From Terebella lapidaria (lineage: Eukaryota > Annelida > Polychaeta > Terebellida > Terebellidae): a stretch of 64,000 bases of DNA. Positions 2,061 to 59,929 of the stretch are shown here, one piece after another. Position 1 is the first letter of the stretch; each line of letters begins with the position of its first letter. The notes below the pieces were generated by a model that saw only the letters and a program-made list of their open reading frames with translations, did no database searches and was not told where the DNA came from. Made by a program: the position numbers and the translations under genes. The stretch is taken from NCBI GenBank assembly GCA_949152475.1, contig OX424561.1, positions 8,308,001 through 8,372,000 of the forward strand. Reading direction: 5' to 3'.

Positions 2061-3290
2061 TGTTGACATGAAGTTCGTTCCTATATTTGTAATGTTGACA
2101 TGTTTCATTTCATTCAGTGGACCCTACTTGACAAAATGATACCAGTTGGTGAGGGTTCTGTGGGAATACACATGGTTCAAAATATGCCCAGGCACTATAT
2201 GGGTTCTGTCGAGCGATTCAAAGAGTTGTCGATTAAAAAAATGTTCAAACCTATGTAGAAGAGTGAATATTATGTCTACAGTGATGTTTGATAAATTATT
2301 CGAAATGTTATTCAATTCCCCCTCTTTTGATACCTCTTGTGTGAGGATATACCAATTAGAACTGATATTACAGACCTAAAGGCAACCATACCCCCTAGTG
2401 CTTTTTGTCGCGAAAGCGTCGAAAAGCGATTCAGGGTACCTTCAAATAAGTGGTGTAAACAGAGAGTACATCCCTACATTTTCAATGTTAACATTTGATT
2501 TCCAACTGAGGACACCCTGGGGCTTCTGAAACAATATGTTTCGCTGAGTTATAGTGGGGGGGGGGTGCATGGGGGACCCCCGTAGCCCGTGGCCTATAGC
2601 TGCCTGCTTTATTATCTATACGTCAATAATTCTCTAGCTGTGGGATGTGCTGTGCGTCGTGGGTTGGTGAACTGATAGGCTTGAGGGGTAAACGACCAAA
2701 TCATATGTGATCTGGCTACTCTCAGATAAGGATTAATGAAAATCACCATAAAGTGATTTGGCCATTGGTTTCTGAAATAAAAGTCAGTAAACTATACCTG
2801 TCAATGAGGCCGTAATACATGTAACTGTCTCATTCGAAAGAAGTTCGGTGGATACTATGTATTAGCTGTCGTCGCGCTGCCACTGCTTCGCTGCCACCAT
2901 ACATGTCTGACAGGCTTTGCGTAATTTCAAACCAAATCATAGTGCCGACCATCATGATGGTCGTATATCGTGATAACCTATGCTATGAAAGCAAATGCAA
3001 AGAATGCCACGAAAGAACAGATTTTTCTGTGAAAACGAAACAGGTTGGTAGGTAAGAAAGTAGGAAGGAGGGTTGTTTGAGAGGGGAGTGTAAAGTAGGT
3101 AGGTAGGTAGGCAGGCAGGCAGGCAGGTAATATAAATTATGAAAATAAATGATGAAGATTCAGCAAGGATTTAATCCCAATCTTTGGACAAGCTCTTTGA
3201 ACATGACAAAATCATGGGAAGTTAATGAATCTTCTGTAGGAGTTTTGCTAATACTAGTTCAGTTCTGAAACATAACGGCAATAATGAAAG
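2060..3290. other. Unassigned non-coding DNA
   Basis: This holds a G-rich run near 2558-2580 and the microsatellite at 3096-3128. I see no gene or known repeat. Confidence 0.45.
3096..3128 (+). repeat. GGTA/GGCA tetranucleotide microsatellite
   Basis: A run of AGGT units changes into a run of AGGC units and then returns to AGGT. Confidence 0.9.
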
Positions 3291-4130
3291 ACACTGACTG
3301 GAGATTTGGTTCGTAGGAACATATTTTAAGCGACGGACGATAAAGCACCAGCGGGATACACCTACGCGGAAGTCGACGACCGGAGAGCATTTAGTTTGGA
3401 TGTTTAGTTCTGGATGTATTGAATGAGTATTATATCAAGCTTCCTTTTTCCCACAAAGGCATCTCTTATATGAGTTACACAAATTATATGCCTTCATTTT
3501 TCACTGAAATATCATTCCTCAGTGAAATGATTATCTTCAATTATTTATGTGCACTTCCAAGAAAGTGAGTCAATGGTTGATGCTGGAGTCAGCAGACCAT
3601 GTAAGTAAGGCAAAACCATCAGGGAAAGCACTCGAATATACAGGAGATAATATTTAAGCTCCAGACAAGTGTTTACTAGTAGTTTAGATACGGGAATATA
3701 TTTCTACTTCTGTTTTATATATCGAGAATATTCAGTTTCATATTTTTGCCATAGTCGTAAGAGTACGTTCTGGTCAATAATAACAATTATTATTAACACA
3801 ATATACGTGCAAAATAAGAATTGAATAAACATATGAATGATATACAAAAATATCGACAGCCCTATATTTTCTTGGATTGTGATCTGTCATGATTTCTAGC
3901 ACATACGAACATTGAATTGTGATACTGTGGACTTGCGTCACCACTATTGAGTTTTCAGTGTAAATACATGCGATATTGGACAATATTAAAAAAGGTATCA
4001 GTTATCTGTTGCATATATTCAAATGTGATACAATTCCCATTTTAACTTCAGCTACACCAATCGTAAGGGATTGGTAAATTATGTTTAATTTACGTAATGT
4101 TTGATTACGTAATGTTTGATTACGTTTGTC

Positions 4131-10359: not shown

Positions 10360-10945
10360 GGAAGCCCATAGGTGACATGCGCGTAAAAAAATTCTGTGTC
10401 TTTTCCAGCAAAAAGCTAGCACGTTCGAACGTGGAAGCATTTAACACTATCACTTTCGCACGTGGAAACAGTTTAGGCTATTGCGTTCACACGTGGAAAG
10501 TCCTAATTTACCACGTTCACACGTGGGAGCATTTAACGCTTCCACGTTCGCACGTGGAAACTTCAGGAGCTACCACGTTCGCACGTGCAAAGATTTGGGT
10601 GTGGTAGCATCAAATACTTTCACGTGTGAACGTGGTAGCTTTGAATCTTTCTACGAGTGAACGTAGAAACCTAAATCTTTCTACGTGCGAACGTGGAAAG
10701 GTATAAATGCTTCCACGTGTGAACGTAGTAGCTTTGAAACTTTCTACGTGTGAACGTGGAAACCTACATCTTTCTACTTGCGAACGTGATAAGTTTTGAA
10801 GTTACCACGTGCGAACGTGATAGCGCTAAATGCTTCCACGTGGGAACGTGATAGCTTTGAACTTTCTACGTTCGAACGTGCAAAGTTTTTAATAGAAAAA
10901 AAACACCAAATTTTTTCCCGCACATGTCACCTATAATGGGCTTCC
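10360..10945. mobile_element. Element A: TIR element with nested inverted minisatellite of E-box palindromes
   Basis: The terminal inverted repeats are about 45 bp. The left end reads GGAAGCCCATAGGTGACATG, then GCG and an A-run; the right end is its near reverse complement. ATAC flanks both sides (10356-10359 and 10946-10949), a possible 4-bp target duplication. The interior is an array of ~31-36-bp units. Six units in the form ACGTTCNCACGTGGAA (10420-10590) are followed by about nine units in the opposite orientation, CACGTGNGAACGT (10621-10885). The whole element therefore folds as one large inverted repeat made of smaller palindromes. Nine exact CACGTG motifs occur. There is no coding capacity, so it is non-autonomous. 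Confidence 0.85.
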
Positions 10946-34690: not shown

Positions 34691-35537
34691 ACGTGAGGTG
34701 CTATATGTCGTGCGTCGAGAGATCTTGAGTTTTTGCTGAGCAGCCGCCCATTGTGTATCAATAAACACTGCGAGACTGTCTGGAAGCCAGTACATAGTTG
34801 CAGATAATGCGTATCTCTGCTATGTGGAGTGGGATCCCATTGTACTAGTCCAGTCCGAGTACACGAGGAAAAGTTTCGGTATCTAAGAAAAAAAAAAACT
34901 CTGAAAACATTTTCCCAGTATTGCTGAGTCTGCGGATATTATGGCTTGTTATTATGGCATAAAAACCGCACTTTCTCATCCCGGTTGCTACGTGGGATTA
35001 GGATACGATGCTTTGATGGCTTAAGGAAGGAAGATGACTTTACGTGATGAAAGCAAATGGACATTATGAATGCAAATCAACACGAATTGGTTTCTCTGCG
35101 TCATTATTGTGTATTGCACAATAACGAGTTGTAGTGGGGGGTAGACTCCGCCCTAGGTGTTCACTCATGTAAGTCTTCATGTGATGCCTTCATTTGCCGC
35201 CTCGCCAAATTTTATTATGCATATCTTGGACATTAATATCGAGAACTCAGCTCTGAAGACTATTGGCTCGTAGATGGCTTTACAATGCAATTTATCAAAT
35301 ACTCCACGTGGATGATACATCAATAAACACCTCACAGAAGTAAGTGATGGACACGAGAATGGTCGGAAGGGAGATTTGGCTGCTGAGTGATTGTAGTTGT
35401 GTCAAAATATAGTCTGCTACCAGTAATGTGAACGATGGTGCCTAACAGCAAAGGTTAATGCACCGATCCGCAGCGTATCACGAACTCCAGCGATTCTTTA
35501 CATGGTATATGTACGTGTACGTTATTTTTCTCTGCAG
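34690..35537 (+). promoter_or_regulatory. Candidate GPA2 promoter and 5' UTR
   Basis: A TATA-like GGCATAAAAACCGC lies near 34957-34970. A consensus octamer, ATGCAAAT, is at 35070-35077. A GTAAGTC splice donor is at about 35169, and an AA|GTAAGTG donor is at about 35340. Either donor could join to the acceptor TTTTCTCTGCAG that ends at 35537, just before the GPA2 start codon. This placement is inference; no transcript evidence is available. Confidence 0.25.
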
Positions 35538-35547
35538 GGGGACTGTT

Positions 35548-35671
35548 ATGAAGCTTTCAGCGATCTTCGCACATATTATGAGGATATTGCTGGCTCTGCT
35601 GTACATGCTCCACACTATGATACCTACCGTCTCGTCTCACTCCTGGGAACGGCCCGGCTGTACCATGCTCG
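35548..35671 (+). CDS. GPA2: GPA2 coding exon 1
   Basis: It encodes the signal peptide and the first cysteine (SWERPGCTML). The acceptor TTTTCTCTGCAG ends at 35537, ten bases before the chosen ATG. The donor is CTCG|GTCAGT at 35671/35672, leaving phase 1. The frame is also open upstream to 35458, but the acceptor argues that the upstream part is intronic. Confidence 0.88.
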
Positions 35672-38600
35672 GTCAGTAACTGCGACTATTATCATTTATA
35701 AATGTTGTAGTTCTCATCTCATTTGTCTAATGCCTAATCTGTCTCCCGTCACTGCCTTGTAATCGCTCGTGTTTCGGACAGCGAAATGATCGCAACAATG
35801 ATAAGAAGTGATATGTGGATAACACGTCTGGTGATTCAGGATAGTGTAAGAGTTGAGCTCAACATTTCGCCAGCTATTCGCTTTTTCTGACATGGATAAT
35901 ATTGTCACATTATTACGACTTACAAAAGTATAAAAATGAAATTATCACGGTTGAAAAGTTCTTAATATGTTGCACGATACGGAAACAATTCAAACTTTGA
36001 AAGTTCATTAACTGCACTTCTCCAAAGTAGACGCCGTTAAGCACTGTAGACAGATTCAATTTACGGGACTGAGAGAACGATTCCCGTGGATTTTGTTGCC
36101 CACAAATCACATTGCTTATTCATGAAGACACTGGGGCGTGTACTTCGGTGGATTACGTTCTCGCGCTGATGAGCTTTGCTTACGTGCTCTTCTCTCTTAA
36201 GCTTGCAACTTATTTTCAAACAGGCCTTTTTTTCTCAGGGCCTTCGCTTAATCCCATCACTCATATACTTTTATAGCTTTTATTCCTCTCGGTATATCCG
36301 AGTAGGATTGACTACAGTATCGTAAATAGGATTAGTGGGCAAAATGCACGTCAATGTACAGTTGGCGTAGCTGGTCTGCGTTGGGAAGATGTCTCTCCCC
36401 ACCACTTACCACGTATTGAACATTCCGTACGGAATTCAAACCCACGCGTAAGTGTTTGTTTGTTTGTATGCAAACAATCCACTGGAAGCGATACAATCAC
36501 CGGTATCGGATCGGGAGTGCTATCACAATTGTTTCACATGAAAATAATATCTATTATCCTAGCGATCTTAGCGTTACACGTCTATATTTCTCTACAAGTT
36601 TACCGGTAAAACTTCAAACAGTTCCCTTCAACCAGGACTGGAGGACATGTTATCGCTGAATCGGTACAGACGCACATTTGAAGTTTTTTTTTAGCTTACC
36701 GAACCTATGGTCCGATAAGCTATTGTCGTCAGGTTGCGTCCGGCGTCCGTCCGTCGGCGTCGGCGTTGTCAAAAGCTGGGAAAAATCTGTTCGATGAATA
36801 TTGCTGTAATTCACAAAATATGTTCTATGGACCCGTATCTCCGGACCATTTTTTTTTTCGTCGATTGAATCGTTTTTTCAAAAAAGGCGGCCATTTTTGT
36901 CGAAAAATGGCCAATTTTGGACTTTGGCGGCCATTTTCTCAAAAACTGTCTGATAAGTTTTGCGATTTTTGTTTCAAAAGATTCCCCTGATATACCTTTG
37001 TGCTGTGTATAAGTTTCGTTGCCCTTGAATCATCAGTCTGCGTGTGGCAGCCATTTTGATTTTTTTCGACCGGTCCCAGATAGGACTTTCCCATGTTAAA
37101 TTAGCCTATGCTTTATAATGGAGACAAATTTCTTCTAATATCTCACTTAATATTGGGATTAGACATTAGGAATCAATTGTGCACATATAGGAAATTATAT
37201 ATGCCGATTATTCTCGTGACCTTGAATTTGACCTTCGACCTAATTTTCAAGGTCACGGCACAAAATGGCTGCTAACTCGCTTATTATCGACTTTACAGCT
37301 TAGGAATCAATTGTCAGCATATAGGAAATGATATATTCTGAATATTATCGTGACCTTGAATTTGACCTTTGACCTCATTTTCAAGGTTACAGGACAAAAT
37401 AGCTAATGTCTTCACAGCTTTACAGCTTAGAAATCAATTGTGAACATATAGGAAATGATGTATGCCGAATATTTCGATGACCTTGAACCTGACACATGAC
37501 CTCGTTTTCAAGGTCAGAGCATGAATGATTTGCAATTATTCTCATGACTTCATGACATCGCTTTCAGCTTACATATAACTGAAACACATATCTTGGGTTC
37601 GGTAAGCGCAAGCCCTACGGCTCTATGTTTTTCAGTTACTATATTGCTGCAATATGCATGCACCCATGTGAATGTCGCACATGGATATGTTCAGACTTAT
37701 CTGGGGAGAAATAAAATACTTGACAGTTGTCATACACGCCCATAAACCAAACACCAAGGTCCGGAACTAACTATAGCTGAACATATGAATCCAATCATTA
37801 TTGTTTATTTGCCGAATGTCTCTGATATGCAAGGATATAAAGCTCCGTGTGCAGTATCTGTTCGAGTACTTTCAAATATCGGGTCAAAAAACATTACCAT
37901 GAGGATTGGTTCGGCTTTTTTTTCATTAAAAATATTGGGTAATCTCTGGTATTTTACTTTGATGTTTATGGGGATTTTTAGCTTACCGGCCCATATGGGC
38001 CGATAAGCTATTGTCGTGGCTTTTCGTCCGTCGTCGACGTCATCGTCCGCATCGTTTGTTAACTTTTTTAATCTTTTTTTTTGGGAAATGGCTGTTTTTG
38101 CTTGTTTTTCAACTTTAAAAATTATTTTCTCAAAAACTGTCTGATCAGTATTGATATTTTAGTTTCAAAATGTTCTCCTCATGTATCATTATGGTATGTA
38201 TAAGTTTCGATGCTCTTGAATCGCCAGTCTGCGTGTGGCGGTCATTTTGATGTTTTCTACTGGGCCCCAATAGGACTTTTCCATGTTAAATTCTCCTATG
38301 CTTTAAAATTGGACACTAATATCTCACTTAATATTGAGATTAGAGACTAGGAATCAATTGTGGACGTATAGGAAGTTATATATGCTGAATATTCTTGTGA
38401 CCTTGTATTTGACCTTTGACCTCAGTTTCAAGGTCAAAGCACAAAATGGCTAATATCTCGCTTATTATTGCCTTTATAGCTTAGGAATCAATTGTTGACA
38501 TATAGGAAGTGATGTATGCTGAATATTCTTGTGACCTCGAATTTGACCTCATTTTCAAGGTCAAAGCACAAAATCTCGCTTATTATTGCTTTTACAGCTC

Positions 38601-41600
38601 AGGAATCAATTGTGGACATATAGGAAGTGATATATGCTGATTATTCTTGTGACCTCGAATTTGACCTTTGACCTCATTTTCAAGGTCAAAGCACACAATG
38701 GCTAATATCTCGCTTATTACTGCCTTTACACCTTAGGAATCAACTGTGAACAGGAAATGATATATGCTGAATATTCTCATGACCTTGAACTTGATTTTTG
38801 ACCTCATTTTCAGGTCAGATCACAAATGGCATCTCACTTATTACCAACTTTACAGCTTAGGAATCAATTGTGGTCAAACACCAAATGATATATGCTGAAT
38901 ATTCTCGTTACCTCGACTTGATCAAAGACCTTATTTTCAAGTTTCCTTTGACCTGATTTTCAAGGTGACAGGAAAAATGTATAAAATCTCGCTTATTGAC
39001 TTCATAGTGTGGGAATTAACGATAGACATATAGGAAATGTTACACGCCAAATATTCTGATGACCTCGAATTTGACCTTTGCCTTCATTTTCAAGGCCACA
39101 TGACAAAATTGCAAATATCTCTCTGATTATTGAATTTACAGCTTAGCAATCAACTGCGCACATGATATATGCTTAATATTATATATGCTGAATATTCTCT
39201 TGACCTTGAATTTACCCAGTGACCTGGCTAACATCTACAATATTAAACCTATATTGTTCGGTAACCTATCTTTGGCCCTTTGACTAATTTTTGTTGTACG
39301 CGTTAATGCAGGAGGTCTTGTTTTGGCACGCCGTGCTACTATTAGGACCAATACGGTATCTTGAGTGAAGGGCTTGTTTAAGTGAACTATCGATTTAATA
39401 AAACGTTCACGCAATTTATTTGTTAAAACATTCCTTCAATTCATTAAAGGAATTGGTCTTTCAAACCGTTTGAAAACAATGTATTGAACGAACGATTTAA
39501 CAATGTGAGTATCAACCTATTATCAACAATGCAACCAGATTTTGATGATGACAATAGTAAATTTAAAATAAAACATTTTGCAATACAAAGTTTATCCGAA
39601 GATAAATTGAGCGACCGGTTTACTATTTTTAACTATTTAAAAGTAACCGGTTAAGTAGGTAAACCGGTTTTTAACTATTTTCCTCGCCATGTTCCATTAA
39701 ACATGTTAAAGGGTTGAGTACTCATCGACGTTTCGACAACCAGGATTGGCAAGTCACTTGTAACTGATTTTGGAAGGGTTTCACTTTCGTAGGTCAGGTT
39801 AGAAGGGTTATATATAATATCCGTGATGAACATGACCATGGCGATTCCGAGCCACCGTACCGCGTAATATCTTGTTGTTGTTGTTTCAATAACTTCATGA
39901 CGTCTCCATACTCATGATACTCAAATGATACGCATCGGCTTAAAAAATCATTTCTTTCATATAATCCTTTGCCTCTAACTTAACATGGTGTTTTTCGTCT
40001 GGTGTATATGTCAGCACTTTCTCCCGTGTTTTGGCAAATAGCAATCTTACAGCTTAAATAGTCTGCACACAAAATGACCAGATTGTGGTGAGCGAGTCAT
40101 ATGTGCTATTGTTCTTGCTGAAAAAAAAAATGAGTTTCGAAATTACGAACTTGGAGACAAATTTGATTAAATTCATTTCATTTCAGTGTCAACCTTTGTT
40201 ATTGACTTTTTTTGGAGCTAATCAGTATGAATGGCCCGACTAAATATTGTTGTCTGAAAGAGCACGTGACATGTTTTATCTAAATGTTGAAAAACTCTTT
40301 GGAAAACAATTAACTTTACGCCTAAAATGGCGTAATTATCCACCTGGTATATTTGTGTGGAGTATTGTTGTATGTAAACAGTTACTAGTATATGGGTATA
40401 TAACTTACTGTTGAAAAAAAAACTAGACTCTGAAAAGAAGTTTGAAGTGGGTGTGTTGATGCAGTAGTCAAATATGAATATATAGCGCCAAAATTATACA
40501 TACTAGCCTTCAATATATCCGTCACAATTCATATTTTACAAATTGTGTATAAAATGTAACCAAAAGCACGCTGAAAAATGAAATTGGGAGTTACGAATAC
40601 CGATTTTGACACATGTTTGTTACGGGATATTTAGCGAAATTCACACCGCCTGCCTAGTCTGTGTGATATATTTGAGAATGACACAATACATTTGAGAGAA
40701 GCATCAACCCTGTCTATTGAGTATCATGTTTATCAAATATCCAGCTGATAGAAACAGATATGACACTGTGCGTTAGTGTGATGCACTGAATTTTGTAGCT
40801 TGATATGCGACGTGGGAATCTTCGGTCCGCTTCATTTATCACGATATCTTCCCCAATTCCGAGACAGTAATAGCCGTATTTTTGTTGCTGATAGGCCCAC
40901 TCGTGAAGTGGCTGGTTGACGACGGCTGACATGTAACAGGCCGTGGATGTTGTTTCCAATTTCGTGGCCAATTTGTTCATGACTTTACGTGTATTGGGTG
41001 CGTTATTGGAACATTTGGGTACCTGTTTTTCTCAAGTATACCTTGTCGCTAGCAGCCATAAACTCCTAGAAGCGCCGTGAGAAAGATAGCCTTTGCTTGT
41101 TTAATTTCCATGCAGGGTATAAGTTTTTGTCTCCTGGGGTCACCTGACAACCTGCTGTTTTCTTTATAAAATGTCCCAAGTCGTGGGATACACAGCAGGC
41201 GTGACCGAGATCAAGTGTCCATGCCTGTAGGTTGTTGGGGGAGGAATTAATAAAGTTTTGATTGAAAGGAATACAATATTCTGTGACAAGGGTGTTGGCT
41301 TGTTGTTCCCACAGACTGAGTACACTGAAGTCGTCATGCTGCAAGTATATTTCTCATGCACATTTACTTTACAGGTTTTGAACTGAAAAACGTTACAACC
41401 GAGAAAAAAAATGGATATAATGTGTAATACATAATGGCGACGATAATATTGTTGAGACTCACTCCTATCTTAGGTACCTCGATCTTAGGTAAATGAATGC
41501 ATTTACAAATTGTGAAATAATTTTACAATCGTAGGATGGCAGACTAATAGTCACATGATACATCTCTCACCTGTGTGCAGATAAAAAGCTATTATGAAAG

Positions 41601-44548
41601 TTCGTATTTCTGCAAACCGATGTCAATACTAGTATACGAATTTCAACTGCAGACACTCGATTCCCACCACAACTAGAGAAATATAAAAAAAACATGCACG
41701 AACCAGGCAGTTCGCAGACAATTCTTCACTTTTTGTGTACTTTGTAATGCTGTTAGAGTTTGATACAGTAGGATATCAGTTGGTGTGCCATTATGAGGCA
41801 AAATTATTCTTTCAACAAAACTTCAATATCTCTGATTGTATTCTCCAGGTCACACGCGGACGGTGCACATTGAAGGGTGCCTTCTGTTTAACGTGACGAC
41901 AAACGCGTGCCGCGGGTACTGCCTCTCGTACGCTCACCCCTCGCCCTACGCAACATTACAGAAGAACCCCAACCACAGGATCACCTCCAAAGCCGAGTGC
42001 TGTGGCATTGCCGACACACACGACGTGAGTGACATTGAAACCCACACACGTGACACTTCTCACTGGCACGCAAACACGTAGAATCGTCCCATATGTCAGG
42101 CTAAATTGTTCCTAGGAGTGAACACTCACCAGTAAAGTCAGAGACACATATCGTTCCATCACCACGGACATTTTGTCTTCGCTAAAAGAGTATGTTTTAT
42201 CGAGTCGACCTATATACTGAATATTGTGGGGGTTCGCCCATCGTCCGTCTTGAAGAGTGTATAATCTGATGGATTTTTAAAAAAAAACTGACGACAACCC
42301 ATTCCAAATTGGTGGTCAATTTATACAACGATTTCCGTTTTTCTCAAATATGACATCACGTCTTTGTTACAAAATATGACCTCTAACCTCCCGATTATGT
42401 CTACCTAAAAATTGTAGAAAACGTGACCTACAAGTTCTTACGTAGTTTATTCGAAGTTTTAGAGCCATTGTTAGGTACACTCAATGTAGGTTCGCTACAT
42501 TACCATTGGTGAATTGATCACCCTGGGCAGAACATTCGAGTTCATGGTTTAGGATTGTAGGGTTCGCATATAAGAAGTCATATTTGATGCATCTGTAATG
42601 TCCTTGAACTTGGTCCTATAAGACCTTGAGTAATTGAAACCAATCATGTTCACATCCAATTGTAAACTGGACACCAAATGTTTTAGTTTGTATTATTTAT
42701 GAAGTCATTTATATATCGTGTATTTCACGGTGACCTCGAGCTTTACCTAATATGACTTTGAGATACCGAACACAATGTAATGTTATCGCGAGACAAAGCC
42801 CGTAGAAAAAAGATAAAAATCAGATTTGCTTGTAATGTATTCTTTTGGTAACACTGTGTCTAATATAATTTTCGATGTTTAATTTTCATAGTTATAAGTT
42901 ATATTTACCATGGAAAGAGTAAATCGTCTATTGAGGCAAGAGTCTTTGAGACTGAGTCCCCGAACAAATTACCCGTAAGCTCCAATACCATTGCACATAA
43001 TCGTGAGAGTAAGTAGGTAGGCAGGTACCTGAAACTTGCACATTCCATCCAGGACTTCAGATGACAGATATTTGATACGGGTGGATGATAACATATTGGT
43101 TGATACTTCAAACATCTTTGATTCCGATTACACGTTTTATCTATGATGCATATAGTACATTAATACAAACATTCATACAATTCATGCATAGTACATGCAT
43201 GGAATTTGTCTGTTTGTCGGTATCTTTTTGTGCTTTCATGGTTAAAGGTACTTCGTAAACGTTGACATTTGATGTTGAATAATCAACGAATATTAATCAA
43301 GATTGTGCCCTTTGAGTGGAGTGAGCAAGGTAATTTGATAGAGTCCTACTATTATCAGTGTGGACCAACTCACCTGACTGAATAAAAACATCTACATTTA
43401 CAATTGTAGGTTAGCATTTACACGTGCAACGATGTGCATTTCAATAATTATCAATTCGAAACGGACGTCTCGGATTGTCACATGAAAAAAAAATTGCTGG
43501 TATATATACTATTTTGATTACCAGTAATGATTTTGTTCTACACGGAATATTTCGATATGTGAATATAATAGTGATAATATTGATGGGGTTTGTTTCGGAT
43601 TTCAAAAATCTTTTATTATGTTGTTGGGCAGTTGTGTATTATTTCCACAATAGAAACCACTATATACCACATATTGTTTGATCTTGAGGGCGCCAGTGTG
43701 TCTTGGGACAAAATATTTCATTTCTATTCCAAAATGTTGTAGTTTATAATTGTCATTGGCTCCATCAACATCTTGTTGTATTGCTAGTAATAGGTTGCTA
43801 CTTACATTCAAACAACGGACAATATAATATCGAAATACATATTCGTTATTTCAACCATCTTAAACTTAGATACCCAACTGTTAATATAAAATGTTTAGGC
43901 GTATGTCAGGTACTCAATTGTTTAAAGTACTCAATTGAGTCACGTGTGGCCATGTATGTGTCCACTGACACATGACATTGATGATCACAATAAAACAACC
44001 AATATTAAACACTTCGGGATAACAACAAAGCCCACCCAAACATTTTGTGCATGCTAAATATCTGATTGTACATTGTACAGTATAGTGTGTACCTACAGAT
44101 ACTGTATACATAAACAGCTTACAACTGCCCAATGACCGATTAAAACAATTTCGAAATACTACACAGACCTCATGAGATAAGTTTTGACAAATAAAGCACC
44201 AAATAAGTGATAAGTAGGTAACCAAATACGTACCAAATCACACCCGAAAAAGGATATTCTTTTGACGTCGACCAACAGTGACACTGACAAGTTTGATACT
44301 TATATTATCACGAAAATTGATGTATATAACTATGTGGATCCAGATACTGTAATAATAATTAAGTGAAATCCTGAAATATAACATGTGTTATAGTATTTGT
44401 AGATAATGTAAGTCTATGTGATATTTTGCAGGTTTATGTGGAGGTCCGCTGTCTTACGTATGCAGGAATAGACACTCGAACTCTGTTATTCAAATCGGCG
44501 AGATCGTGCTCGTGTACAATATGTAGGAACACCCTGTCATTCAACTGA
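35548..44548 (+). CDS. GPA2: Glycoprotein hormone alpha-2 (thyrostimulin alpha subunit), three coding exons
   Basis: This is a secreted cystine-knot hormone subunit. In known animals GPA2 pairs with GPB5 and signals through an LGR-type receptor. The coding sequence is the join of 35548-35671, 41849-42024 and 44432-44548, giving 138 aa. Introns are GT-AG, with phase 1 then phase 0, and are 6177 and 2407 bp. Residues 1-30 form a signal peptide with a hydrophobic core (ILLALLYML). The mature part starts around HSWERPGC. All ten family cysteines are present: C38, C52, C62, C66, C92, C93, C107, C126, C128 and C131. They include the knot signatures C-R-G-Y-C (62-66) and C-S-C (126-128). N56-V-T is an N-glycosylation site. 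The length fits the family. Three R2 and several R1 repeats fill the introns. Start alternative: the in-frame Met at residue 11. No disabling change is seen. Confidence 0.93.
35672..36683 (+). other. GPA2 intron 1, left part
   Basis: This is intronic sequence before the first R2 insertion. No further gene or repeat was recognised. Confidence 0.5.
36684..37633 (+). mobile_element. R2 repeat in GPA2 intron 1, copy 1
   Basis: The left end TTAGCTTACCGAACCTATGG (36691) and the right end GGGTTCGGTAAGC (about 37594-37606) show the inverted GCTTACCGAAC ends. A CGTCCGTCCGTCGGCGTCGG tract follows the left end. Three ~130-bp units at 37120-37520 each carry CAATTGTG...CATATAGGAAATGAT, TGACCTTGA and TTTTCAAGGT. 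The units contain a perfect TGACCTTTGACCT at 37363-37375. Confidence 0.85.
37210..37520 (+). promoter_or_regulatory. Nuclear-receptor-like motif cluster in R2 (intron 1, first)
   Basis: TGACCTTGA occurs at about 37218, 37350 and 37478. TCAAGGTCA occurs at about 37248 and 37508. TGACCTTTGACCT occurs at 37363. TCAAGGTCA is the extended half-site known for ERR and NR5A receptors. AGGTCAAAGGTCA is the DR1 site known for RXR heterodimers, HNF4 and COUP-TF. The motifs are in the DNA; receptor binding is inference. Confidence 0.5.
37634..37974 (+). other. Spacer between two R2 copies
   Basis: Unique intronic sequence. No feature was recognised. Confidence 0.5.
37975..39292 (+). mobile_element. R2 repeat in GPA2 intron 1, copy 2
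   Basis: The left end is TTTTTAGCTTACCGGCCCAT. The right end is ATTGTTCGGTAACCTATCTTTG. It contains about seven ~120-150-bp units (38300-39230) with the same layout as the first intronic copy. Unit number therefore varies between R2 copies, as expected for internal tandem repeats. Confidence 0.85.
38390..39230 (+). promoter_or_regulatory. Nuclear-receptor-like motif cluster in R2 (intron 1, second)
   Basis: Perfect TGACCTTTGACCT (DR1) lies at 38410-38422 and 38662-38674. Perfect TCAAGGTCA lies near 38429, 38555 and 38681. TGACCTTGA lies near 38782 and 39193. Near matches occur in the other units. Confidence 0.5.
39497..39600 (-). repeat. R1 repeat fragment in GPA2 intron 1
   Basis: GTATCAACCTATTATCAACA, then ATGCAACCAGATTTTGATGATG and ACATTTTGCAATACAAAG, match reverse-complement R1. 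Confidence 0.75.
39600..40713. other. GPA2 intron 1, unassigned part
   Basis: An imperfect local repeat of ACCGGTTTACTATTTTTAAC type lies at 39613-39685. Nothing else was recognised. Confidence 0.45.
40714..40980 (-). CDS. Uncharacterised 88-aa ORF on the antisense strand of GPA2 intron 1
   Basis: This complete ATG-to-stop frame begins MNKLATKLETTSTACYMSAV and includes WAYQQQKYGYYCLG and EADRRFPRR. Codon choice looks less AT-driven than in the chance frames of this window, and no long frame overlaps it on the other strand. No domain is recognised. It lies 85 bp downstream of another minus-strand frame (41066-41344), so the two could be exons or pieces of one nested gene or of a decayed element. 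It may still be chance. Confidence 0.25.
   Translation of the reverse strand: MNKLATKLETTSTACYMSAVVNQPLHEWAYQQQKYGYYCLGIGEDIVINEADRRFPRRISSYKIQCITLTHSVISVSISWIFDKHDTQ
41066..41344 (-). CDS. Uncharacterised 92-aa ORF on the antisense strand of GPA2 intron 1
   Basis: The frame begins MQHDDFSVLSLWEQQANTLV and contains LDLGHACCVSHDLGHFIKK and TPGDKNLYP. It has a complete start and stop. Composition resembles the neighbouring frame at 40714-40980 in the same direction. A second frame (41164-41361) overlaps it on the same strand and is probably its shadow. I recognise no family. A possible donor, CAAG|GTATAC, lies about 25 bp after the stop. Confidence 0.25.
   Translation of the reverse strand: MQHDDFSVLSLWEQQANTLVTEYCIPFNQNFINSSPNNLQAWTLDLGHACCVSHDLGHFIKKTAGCQVTPGDKNLYPAWKLNKQRLSFSRRF
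41849..42024 (+). CDS. GPA2: GPA2 coding exon 2
   Basis: It encodes HTRTVHIEGC through IADTHD with five of the ten cysteines (EGC, NAC, GYC, ECC) and the FNVT glycosylation site. The acceptor TGTATTCTCCAG ends at 41848 and the donor is GAC|GTGAGTGAC. The exon is clearly GC-richer than the flanking introns. Confidence 0.93.
42190..42790 (+). mobile_element. R2-like repeat in GPA2 intron 2, degraded
   Basis: TCGAGTCGACCTATATACTG, GGTTCGCCCATCGTCCGTC and later CTATAAGACCTTGAGTAATTG and GGTGACCTCGAGCTTTACCT follow the R2 layout. The ends are too diverged to fix exactly. Confidence 0.5.
42791..43575. other. GPA2 intron 2, unassigned part
   Basis: No gene was recognised. A TTTGTCTGTTTGTCGGTATCT segment near 43205 resembles 25725 in U5. 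Confidence 0.4.
43575..43810 (+). repeat. R1 repeat copy in GPA2 intron 2
   Basis: Forward R1: GGGGTTTGTTTCGGATTTC, TGTTGGGCAGTTGTG, GCGCCAGTGTGTCTTGGGA, TCCAAAATGTTGTAGTTTA and AATAGGTTGCTACTTACATT. Confidence 0.8.
43960..44310 (-). repeat. R1 repeat, diverged minus-strand copy in intron 2
   Basis: ATAACAACAAAGCCCACCCA, AACTGCCCAATGACCGATTAAA, CCTCATGAGATAAG and CCAACAGTGACACTGACAAG follow the reverse R1 order with many changes. Confidence 0.55.
44432..44548 (+). CDS. GPA2: GPA2 coding exon 3 and stop
   Basis: It encodes VYVEVRCLTYAGIDTRTLLF, then KSARSCSCTICRNTLSFN and the TGA at 44546. It holds the last four cysteines. VRCL and the C-S-C-x-x-C ending are the conserved C-terminus of GPA2. 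The acceptor TGATATTTTGCAG ends at 44431. Confidence 0.93.
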   Translation, partial: VYVEVRCLTYAGIDTRTLLFKSARSCSCTICRNTLSFN

Positions 44549-47780: not shown

Positions 47781-48082
47781 CGGAAGCGCAGTGCTGCCAC
47801 ATCAGAAAAAAAAATAAGTCGTTTTAACGAGATAATATGTCGATTTGACGAGATAATTAAGTCGTTTTAACGAGATAATAAGTCGATTTAACGAGATAAT
47901 TAAGTCGTTTTAACGAGTTAATAAGTCGATTTAACGAGATAATTACGTCGTTTTAACGAGATAATAAGTCGATTTAACGAGATAATTAAGTCGATTTAAC
48001 GAGATAATATCTCGTTAAAACGACTTATAATCACGTTAAAACGACTTAATTTTTTCTCTCATGTGGCAGCACTGCGCTTCCG
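47781..48082. mobile_element. Element D: TIR element with TCGTTTTAACGAGATAAT array
   Basis: The ends are CGGAAGCGCAGTGCTGCCAC and its exact reverse complement, about 22 bp plus an A/T-rich tail (~35-40 bp in all). The interior is about eleven ~20-bp units alternating AAGTCGTTTTAACGAGATAA and AAGTCGATTTAACGAGATAA. Two inverted units (CTCGTTAAAACGACTTATAA) follow just before the right end. It has no coding capacity and no clear target duplication. Confidence 0.85.
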
Positions 48083-58678: not shown

Positions 58679-59929
58679 ATGGACGTGTACGTGGATTTCA
58701 TTGACCAATCAGATCATAATGAGGGGATACTAGTTAGCCCAGAACGGGTTTTGCGTGACAGGCAGAGCCCATTTGAGATGTACACGGAATTGGAACTTTA
58801 TGTACGCTTCCGATTTCCAAAAAAAACTCTCATTGATATGACCGACTTATCATACGGGGCAAAAGTATGGGATATACCACAGCATTTGCAGATTTATTGC
58901 TATTCAGTTTTATGCCACTGGAACTTTCAAAAACGCCAGTGGCAGATCTGTTCGGTATACACAGAAAAACTGCATGTCGGATCATAAACAAGGTATCACG
59001 AGCTATTCATGTAGCTGCTCTGAGAGGCACTTTCATTGTCATGCCCAATGGCAATGGAATCCCAAATGTTCAACAACATTGCTGGCTTCCCAGGAGTAAG
59101 TGTTCGCAACATTGCTGGCCTCCCAGGAGTAATTTGTGCAATTGACTACACACACATAGCGATTCAGTGTTCTGGTTGGGATACAGCGGAACAGAAATCG
59201 GAAGAATTACTTTTCGATCAATGTCTAAGTCATTGGTGACGCCGACCATTCGAAACATCGTTGTGAGGTGGCCTGGATATACCCATGACATACACATACT
59301 GGATATCAGTGCTGTATGTACAGTCCTGGAATGAAAACATGAAGAGTGCGGTTTGGGTGACGGTGGATATCCCTGTTGGCATAACACAATGACGCCGTTA
59401 ATAAACCCGACAACAACAGGACTGTGAGCGTAGGCACAAAAGGATACCGACAAACAGACAAATTCCAATTCCAAGACCGAATCCATGGCAAATTACACTG
59501 AAGTTTACAAATTCAGTGTAAGTGGTCAAATCCGAGGGATACTACCAGTATCATAGTCAGAGCCATGTGAATATCGCAGACACCCAGCCAGCTGAGTGTG
59601 AGATCAGGTGCTCCAGAAGAGTGAGCATCTCCTTCCCCGCATACTATGCCCATTCGAAGACTCGCAATACGGTTGTTCGTGTTATGGAAAAGAAGATTCC
59701 CATCGATGAGAGCAACACTCCGTAACAAGGTTAACACTTCCCTGGTGATGATGATTGCCCACTGCAAGCCTGTACAATATCGCGCGAAATCACAACCTAC
59801 CATATCCGGAAGATTTTGAAGACGCACAGTTGGAAAACCATGATCAACCTGCAGTCTGCTTCCATGTTGATTGACAACCAACAGGGCGCAGCTATCAGAA
59901 GAACACTTGTGTTTAATCAGTTCAGCTGA
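58679..59929 (+). pseudogene. PIF/Harbinger (HARBI1-like) transposase, decayed
   Basis: This is the DDE nuclease of a Harbinger DNA transposon. The start at 58679 reads MDVYVDFIDQS. The next blocks follow the HARBI1 order in changing frames: RDRQSPFEMYTELELYVRFR, then PVADLFGIHRKTACRIINKV, then VICAIDYTHIAIQC with the first catalytic Asp at 59144-59146. VRWPGYTHDIHILD and LGDGGYP follow, with the second Asp at 59359-59361. The last blocks are LWKRRFPSMRATLRNKVNTS (59682 on) and GAAIRRTLVFNQFS with the stop at 59927. Several frameshifts and stops break it. The region around the third acidic residue before WKRRFP is lost. A 25-bp stretch is duplicated with 33-bp spacing (59075-59132), repeating NIAG[FL]PGV in frame. 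Gene-poor context fits a dead transposon. Confidence 0.85.

Follow-up and report, generated by a model that had tools for sequence, protein, structure and literature searches.

The GPA2 (thyrostimulin alpha) gene of the annelid Terebella lapidaria and a linked tandem pair of GPB5 genes

The window analyzed here is a 64,000-nt stretch of Terebella lapidaria DNA (contig OX424561.1, positions 8,308,001 to 8,372,000, forward strand; C7:8308001-8372000 in our numbering of the 761.6-Mb, 438-contig genome). Within it, three short exons, dispersed over 9 kb, encode a cystine-knot protein when joined. This raises two questions: to which cystine-knot family does the gene belong, and is it an intact gene? 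The best identification is GPA2, the alpha subunit of thyrostimulin, and it is well supported by sequence scores, by the arrangement of cysteines, and by linkage to GPB5. We place a probability of roughly 0.95 on the whole explanation, i.e., that this is an intact GPA2 gene, with no second copy found, whose secreted product dimerizes with GPB5 to act on an LGR1-type receptor. GPA2 is known across bilaterians, so the gene adds another member to a known family. It is a normal three-coding-exon ortholog, sound but ordinary.

Gene model and product

The initial annotation proposed three exons with correct splice sites and phases, and we reproduced this model exactly: the coordinates, the GT-AG intron ends, the intron phases (1 and 0), the product length of 138 amino acids (aa), and the stop codon. 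Joining and translating the exons gives a frame that opens with the ATG at 35548, closes with a stop codon whose last base is 44548, and encodes a cystine-knot precursor. The features, in window positions, are as follows.

35548 to 35671, plus strand: GPA2 coding exon 1, with the ATG, the hydrophobic leader, and SHSWERPGCTMLG (Cys I); donor GT at 35672
35672 to 41848, plus strand: intron 1, 6177 bp, phase 1, GT...AG
41849 to 42024, plus strand: GPA2 coding exon 2, the knot core, with EGC, the N-V-T sequon, CRGYC, and AECC
42025 to 44431, plus strand: intron 2, 2407 bp, phase 0, GT...AG
44432 to 44548, plus strand: GPA2 coding exon 3, with Cys III and CSCTIC; stop codon at 44546-44548
35522 to 35537, plus strand: acceptor-like tract TTATTTTTCTCTGCAG, read by eye, directly 5' of the start codon; a possible boundary of a 5' untranslated exon

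Exons of 124, 176, and 117 bp mean that none exceeds 59 codons, as had been stated. As to the associated claim that a simple open reading frame scan would miss the gene, ordinary homology- or RNA-based annotation should recover it. A recount of the spliced product gave the same motifs as the initial annotation: ten cysteines (at 38, 52, 62, 66, 92, 93, 107, 126, 128, and 131), one CxGxC (CRGYC), one CxC (CSC), and one N-x-T. The last, NVT at position 56, is the only N-glycosylation sequon and a predicted site. Hydropathy of the leader peaks in the segment IMRILLALLYM, which by this measure is a putative signal peptide.

Could such an arrangement of cysteines arise by chance? A regular expression for the core cysteines (C...CxGxC...CC) has a single match in the six frames of 264 kb, at the GPA2 gene, and none in 64-kb windows simulated with a first-order Markov model (n = 60); the cysteine pattern exceeds chance. 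The coding sequence has a GC content of 52.8%, rising to 66.2% at third codon positions (GC3), compared with 37.8% for the window. Exon 2 is at 58.5% versus 37.2% for its flanks, a value equaled or exceeded in 15 of 3192 stepped 176-bp windows. The open frame of exon 2 has Pfam matches to Hormone_6 (E = 6.3e-4) and DAN (E = 0.002), both below cut-off. The Pfam scan covered 20 of the 84 open frames of at least 80 aa in the window, among which two stood out, that of exon 2 and one with a weak match to a transposase helix-turn-helix; hits at 0.017 and 0.099 on two other scanned frames were taken as chance.

These features also bear on whether the locus might be a decayed or unexpressed GPA2 copy, which we consider extremely improbable. 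The frame is intact, the splice sites are GT-AG, all ten cysteines are present, and GC3 is high, while a processed copy would be missing the introns found here. A protein search of the genome, with five candidates scored, found no second GPA2 copy; it recovered the three exons and one chance-level match on C16 (E = 0.25). Exon 1 has no further copy within 264 kb. Together, the introns, the intact gene, and the failure to find a second copy argue against a processed or decayed copy.

Family assignment and GPB5 linkage

We compared the product with seven reference sequences (human GPA2, the PDB chains 8enb_A and 8enb_B, NBL1, human GPB5, CGA, and fly bursicon) and with three paralogs from the same genome (gremlin and the two GPB5 proteins described below), using local pairwise alignment and z-scores from shuffles in which the cysteines were held fixed. 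The initial annotation had called for alignment with known GPA2 proteins and for a check that no other cystine-knot family matched better. The highest scores are to human GPA2 (129, z = 9.6) and 8enb_A (113, z = 11.0), and no other family gave a better match among the seven references and three paralogs: NBL1 scored 76 (z = 5.4), human GPB5 68 (z = 4.9), CGA 64 (z = 4.3), fly bursicon 52 (z = 2.4), the genome's own gremlin 48 (z = 2.5), its GPB5-B 47 (z = 2.3), 8enb_B 37 (z = 1.5), and its GPB5-A 31 (z = -0.4). In the reverse direction, the top score of human GPA2 is that with the window product (129), followed by CGA (75) and 8enb_A (73), and 8enb_A likewise scores highest with the window product (113), with NBL1 next (98). 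Ungapped identity is 36% (34/94) to human GPA2 and 30% (25/83) to 8enb_A. A PDB search with the product places 8enb_A first (E = 1.3e-6) and NBL1 next (E = 0.016).

The cysteine layout points the same way. GPA2 is defined as having ten cysteines, an 8-residue ring with additional I-III and II-IV bridges, and no extra ring cysteine (PMC3224965). The layout of the product, with ten cysteines, a CC pair, and no extra ring cysteine, fits this definition, the pairing itself being predicted. Scallop GPA2 also has ten conserved cysteines (PMC5996578).

The best PDB match, 8enb_A, is listed in that database as “Bursicon,” a label that would favor the product being bursicon alpha or another bursicon-type subunit. 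We regard this as very unlikely. The product scores 52 with fly bursicon versus 129 with human GPA2, and the fly bursicon segment has 11 cysteines versus ten in the product. A genome query with bursicon, with four candidates scored, returned C6:32160568-32160774 (E = 1.0e-5) and C6:32167391-32167501 (E = 0.086), and did not return the GPA2 locus at E up to 10. Moreover, the alignment score of 8enb_A itself with fly bursicon is 36 (z = 0.1), which by this measure gives it no likeness to bursicon. We take 8enb to be the Caenorhabditis elegans alpha2/beta5 complex, with chain A being nematode GPA2; Gong et al. reportedly described this structure in 2023, probably as entry 8enb. That a C. elegans alpha2/beta5 structure exists is documented, and the available portion of the source states no PDB code and hence does not confirm this one (PMC10319355).

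The strongest new evidence for GPA2 lies outside the window. A reading of the neighborhood revealed two tandem GPB5 genes downstream on the same contig, on the minus strand, 2.2 kb apart and tail to tail with GPA2. The gap from the GPA2 stop codon to that of GPB5-B is 68.6 kb.

C7:8425807-8425556 and 8424323-8424111, minus strand: GPB5-A, first listed exon without a start codon
C7:8421910-8421656 and 8421363-8421169, minus strand: GPB5-B, 149 aa

The first listed exon of GPB5-A has an acceptor in addition to lacking a start codon, which implies an upstream exon. The two genes have an intron at the same place, encode ten cysteines each, and are 48% identical (51/107); their CxGxC regions read CWGRC in GPB5-A and CGGLC in GPB5-B. 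The first pointers to the locus, at C7:8421169-8421378 (minus strand), were weak (Cys_knot, E = 0.016; human GPB5, E = 0.21). With human GPB5, GPB5-A scores 121 and GPB5-B 126, and a genome query with GPB5-A, with four candidates scored, returned no locus besides the four GPB5 exons at E up to 10. The best PDB match of GPB5-B is 8enb_B (E = 1.7e-7), just as 8enb_A is the best match of the window product, which fits an alpha/beta pair. GPA-GPB linkage is described for most invertebrates (PMC8522476, PMC4200219), and GPA2/GPB5 synteny is conserved in human, amphioxus, and limpet (PMC4079206).

Two other loci were encountered. The sole genome match of Pfam Cys_knot at the default cut-off, at C13:22112279, was set aside as a CCN-like CT domain by eye. 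Near GPB5-A, at about C7:8427811-8426663 (minus strand), a long open frame appears by eye to encode the tyrosine recombinase of a mobile element.

Several points weigh against the GPA2 identification, the first being a resemblance to DAN. The only above-cut-off Pfam match of the product is to DAN (E = 1.1e-6, 29.1 bits versus a cut-off of 22), with Cys_knot (4.8e-4) and Hormone_6 (0.027, 14.9 bits versus 25) below cut-off. NBL1 is the second PDB match, and DAN also has ten cysteines with a similar bridge layout, close to that of GPA2 (PMC3224965). The product could therefore be read as a DAN/NBL1-type antagonist of bone morphogenetic proteins, which we judge highly improbable: the NBL1 score of 76 compares with 129 for human GPA2 and 113 for 8enb_A, NBL1 has C-x-x-C where the product has CC in the alignment, and the gene for the product is linked to GPB5. 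Taken alone, the Pfam result would be misleading, and it is not decisive, since human GPA2 also stays sub-cut-off (Hormone_6 at 23 bits; below both cut-offs that it touches, and no DAN match) and the 8enb_A stretch also has DAN first (34.4 bits), with Hormone_6 below cut-off (14 bits). If 8enb_A is GPA2, the DAN match is not specific.

The remaining adverse points concern the references, the linkage, and glycosylation. Four of the seven reference sequences, including human GPA2, human GPB5, and fly bursicon, were entered by hand rather than taken from database records, and 8enb_A is GPA2 by presumption. A PDB search with human GPA2, to E = 0.1, did not retrieve 8enb_A, which scores higher with NBL1 (98) than with human GPA2 (73). 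GPB5-A matches 8enb_B at E = 0.18, behind a chance ferredoxin match at 0.14. The 69-kb spacing and convergent orientation of GPA2 and GPB5 are looser than a tight tandem. Lastly, the product has a single sequon versus two potential sites described for GPA2 (PMC4341566); glycosylation sites in invertebrates are described as highly variable (PMC8522476). The gene structure, the family resemblance, the GPB5 linkage, and the presence of TSHR-like seven-transmembrane (7TM) sequences in the genome are direct observations.

How might the GPA2 product act? Its expression, secretion, disulfide pairing, dimerization, and receptor activation are steps that we infer. The precursor would lose its leader and fold into a cystine knot that has an 8-residue ring and two additional disulfides (I-III and II-IV). 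Secreted GPA2 would then pair non-covalently with GPB5 from the two tandem genes, and the heterodimer would act on an LGR1-type (TSHR-like) receptor. In the fly, the GPA2/GPB5 heterodimer activates LGR1 (PMC8522476). GPA2/GPB5 dimers have been argued to be possibly unstable at low concentration (PMC3224965), such that separate or paracrine roles are also possible. Two 7TM loci on the same contig, C7:9994568-9995428 and C7:1650308-1651162, were compared with hand-entered human 7TM sequences and have identities of 49% and 48% to TSHR and 28% each to LGR5; both look nearer to TSHR, a comparison that does not separate type A from bursicon-type receptors. A third TSHR 7TM match, on C12, is split, with 46-57% identity across its parts. 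A genome search for the receptor hinge family PF12369 gave one sub-threshold match, with no receptor sequence seen within it.

Intron 1 and repeats of the window

Intron 1 contains the following repeats.

36675 to 39292: dispersed repeat containing tandem units of ~120-135 bp; matched parts 36675-37641 and 37974-39292
37166 to 37521 and 38348 to 38941: tandem arrays within this repeat

The initial annotation described intron 1 as 6.2 kb long, which its 6177 bp bear out, and as mostly transposon-derived, which is not established but may still hold. Dispersed repeats cover intron positions ~1004-1970 and ~2303-3621, or 2286 of 6177 bases (37%), and local self-comparison gives 36%. Since 40 of 23,116 candidates were scored, the 37% is a lower bound. 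Among those scored, intron positions ~1004-1850 recur at 39 other places with 90-95% identity, and the scored copies are spread over 16 of contigs C1-C17, making this a high-copy repeat. The description of the surroundings as a “repeat desert” is loose, as 37% of the window recurs elsewhere within 264 kb.

Three further features were noted in the window.

10415 to 10884: arrays of 30-31-bp units whose cores resemble CACGTTCGNACGTGG; the two orientations occur next to each other
47813 to 48048: array of 21-22-bp units (AATAAGTCGATTTAACGAGAT), followed by an apparently inverted unit
58837 to 59142: open frame matching HTH_Tnp_4 (4.1e-4, below cut-off) and, more weakly, two other helix-turn-helix families; Harbinger-like by eye

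Comparison with known systems

The sole unusual point of this locus, and a mildly unusual one, is that a single GPA2 is accompanied by two GPB5 genes in tandem. One tentative interpretation, which we hold to be somewhat doubtful, is that the single GPA2 serves both diverged GPB5 proteins, giving two thyrostimulin-like heterodimers and possibly engaging two TSHR-like receptors, whose genes would be those found on this same chromosome. If true, this would be a small, independent parallel to the one-alpha, many-beta system of vertebrates. A starfish has three GPB5 precursors (PMC4772807), so the novelty would lie in the lineage and the arrangement rather than in the principle. In the available portions of the literature on duplicated GPB5, we found vertebrate paralogs and no invertebrate tandem pair, and we do not claim that such a pair is unpublished. 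More broadly, the analysis provides a clean GPA2 gene model and one more genome with GPA2-GPB5 linkage, and the tandem pair is a natural setting in which to ask whether beta subunits of invertebrates can specialize around one alpha, as occurred in vertebrates.

Among known systems, the product shares most with GPA2 itself (human GPHA2; C. elegans FLR-2/GPLA-1): the ten-cysteine layout, CxGxC, CC, CxCxxC, a putative leader, and linkage to GPB5. It differs from human GPA2 in the position of its single sequon, the human NIT site lying elsewhere, and from other GPA2 systems in that the partner GPB5 is duplicated, 69 kb away, and convergent. The GPB5 proteins are beta subunits, i.e., partners of the alpha product and not the alpha gene itself. 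NBL1/DAN and gremlin have the 8-residue-ring knot and the Pfam DAN match in common with the product but score lower with it, and the gremlin-like gene of this genome is a separate locus 3.9 Mb away (C7:12276226-12276546). Bursicon alpha belongs to the same cystine-knot hormone superfamily, but its score with the product is much lower, and its candidate exons lie on another contig, C6.

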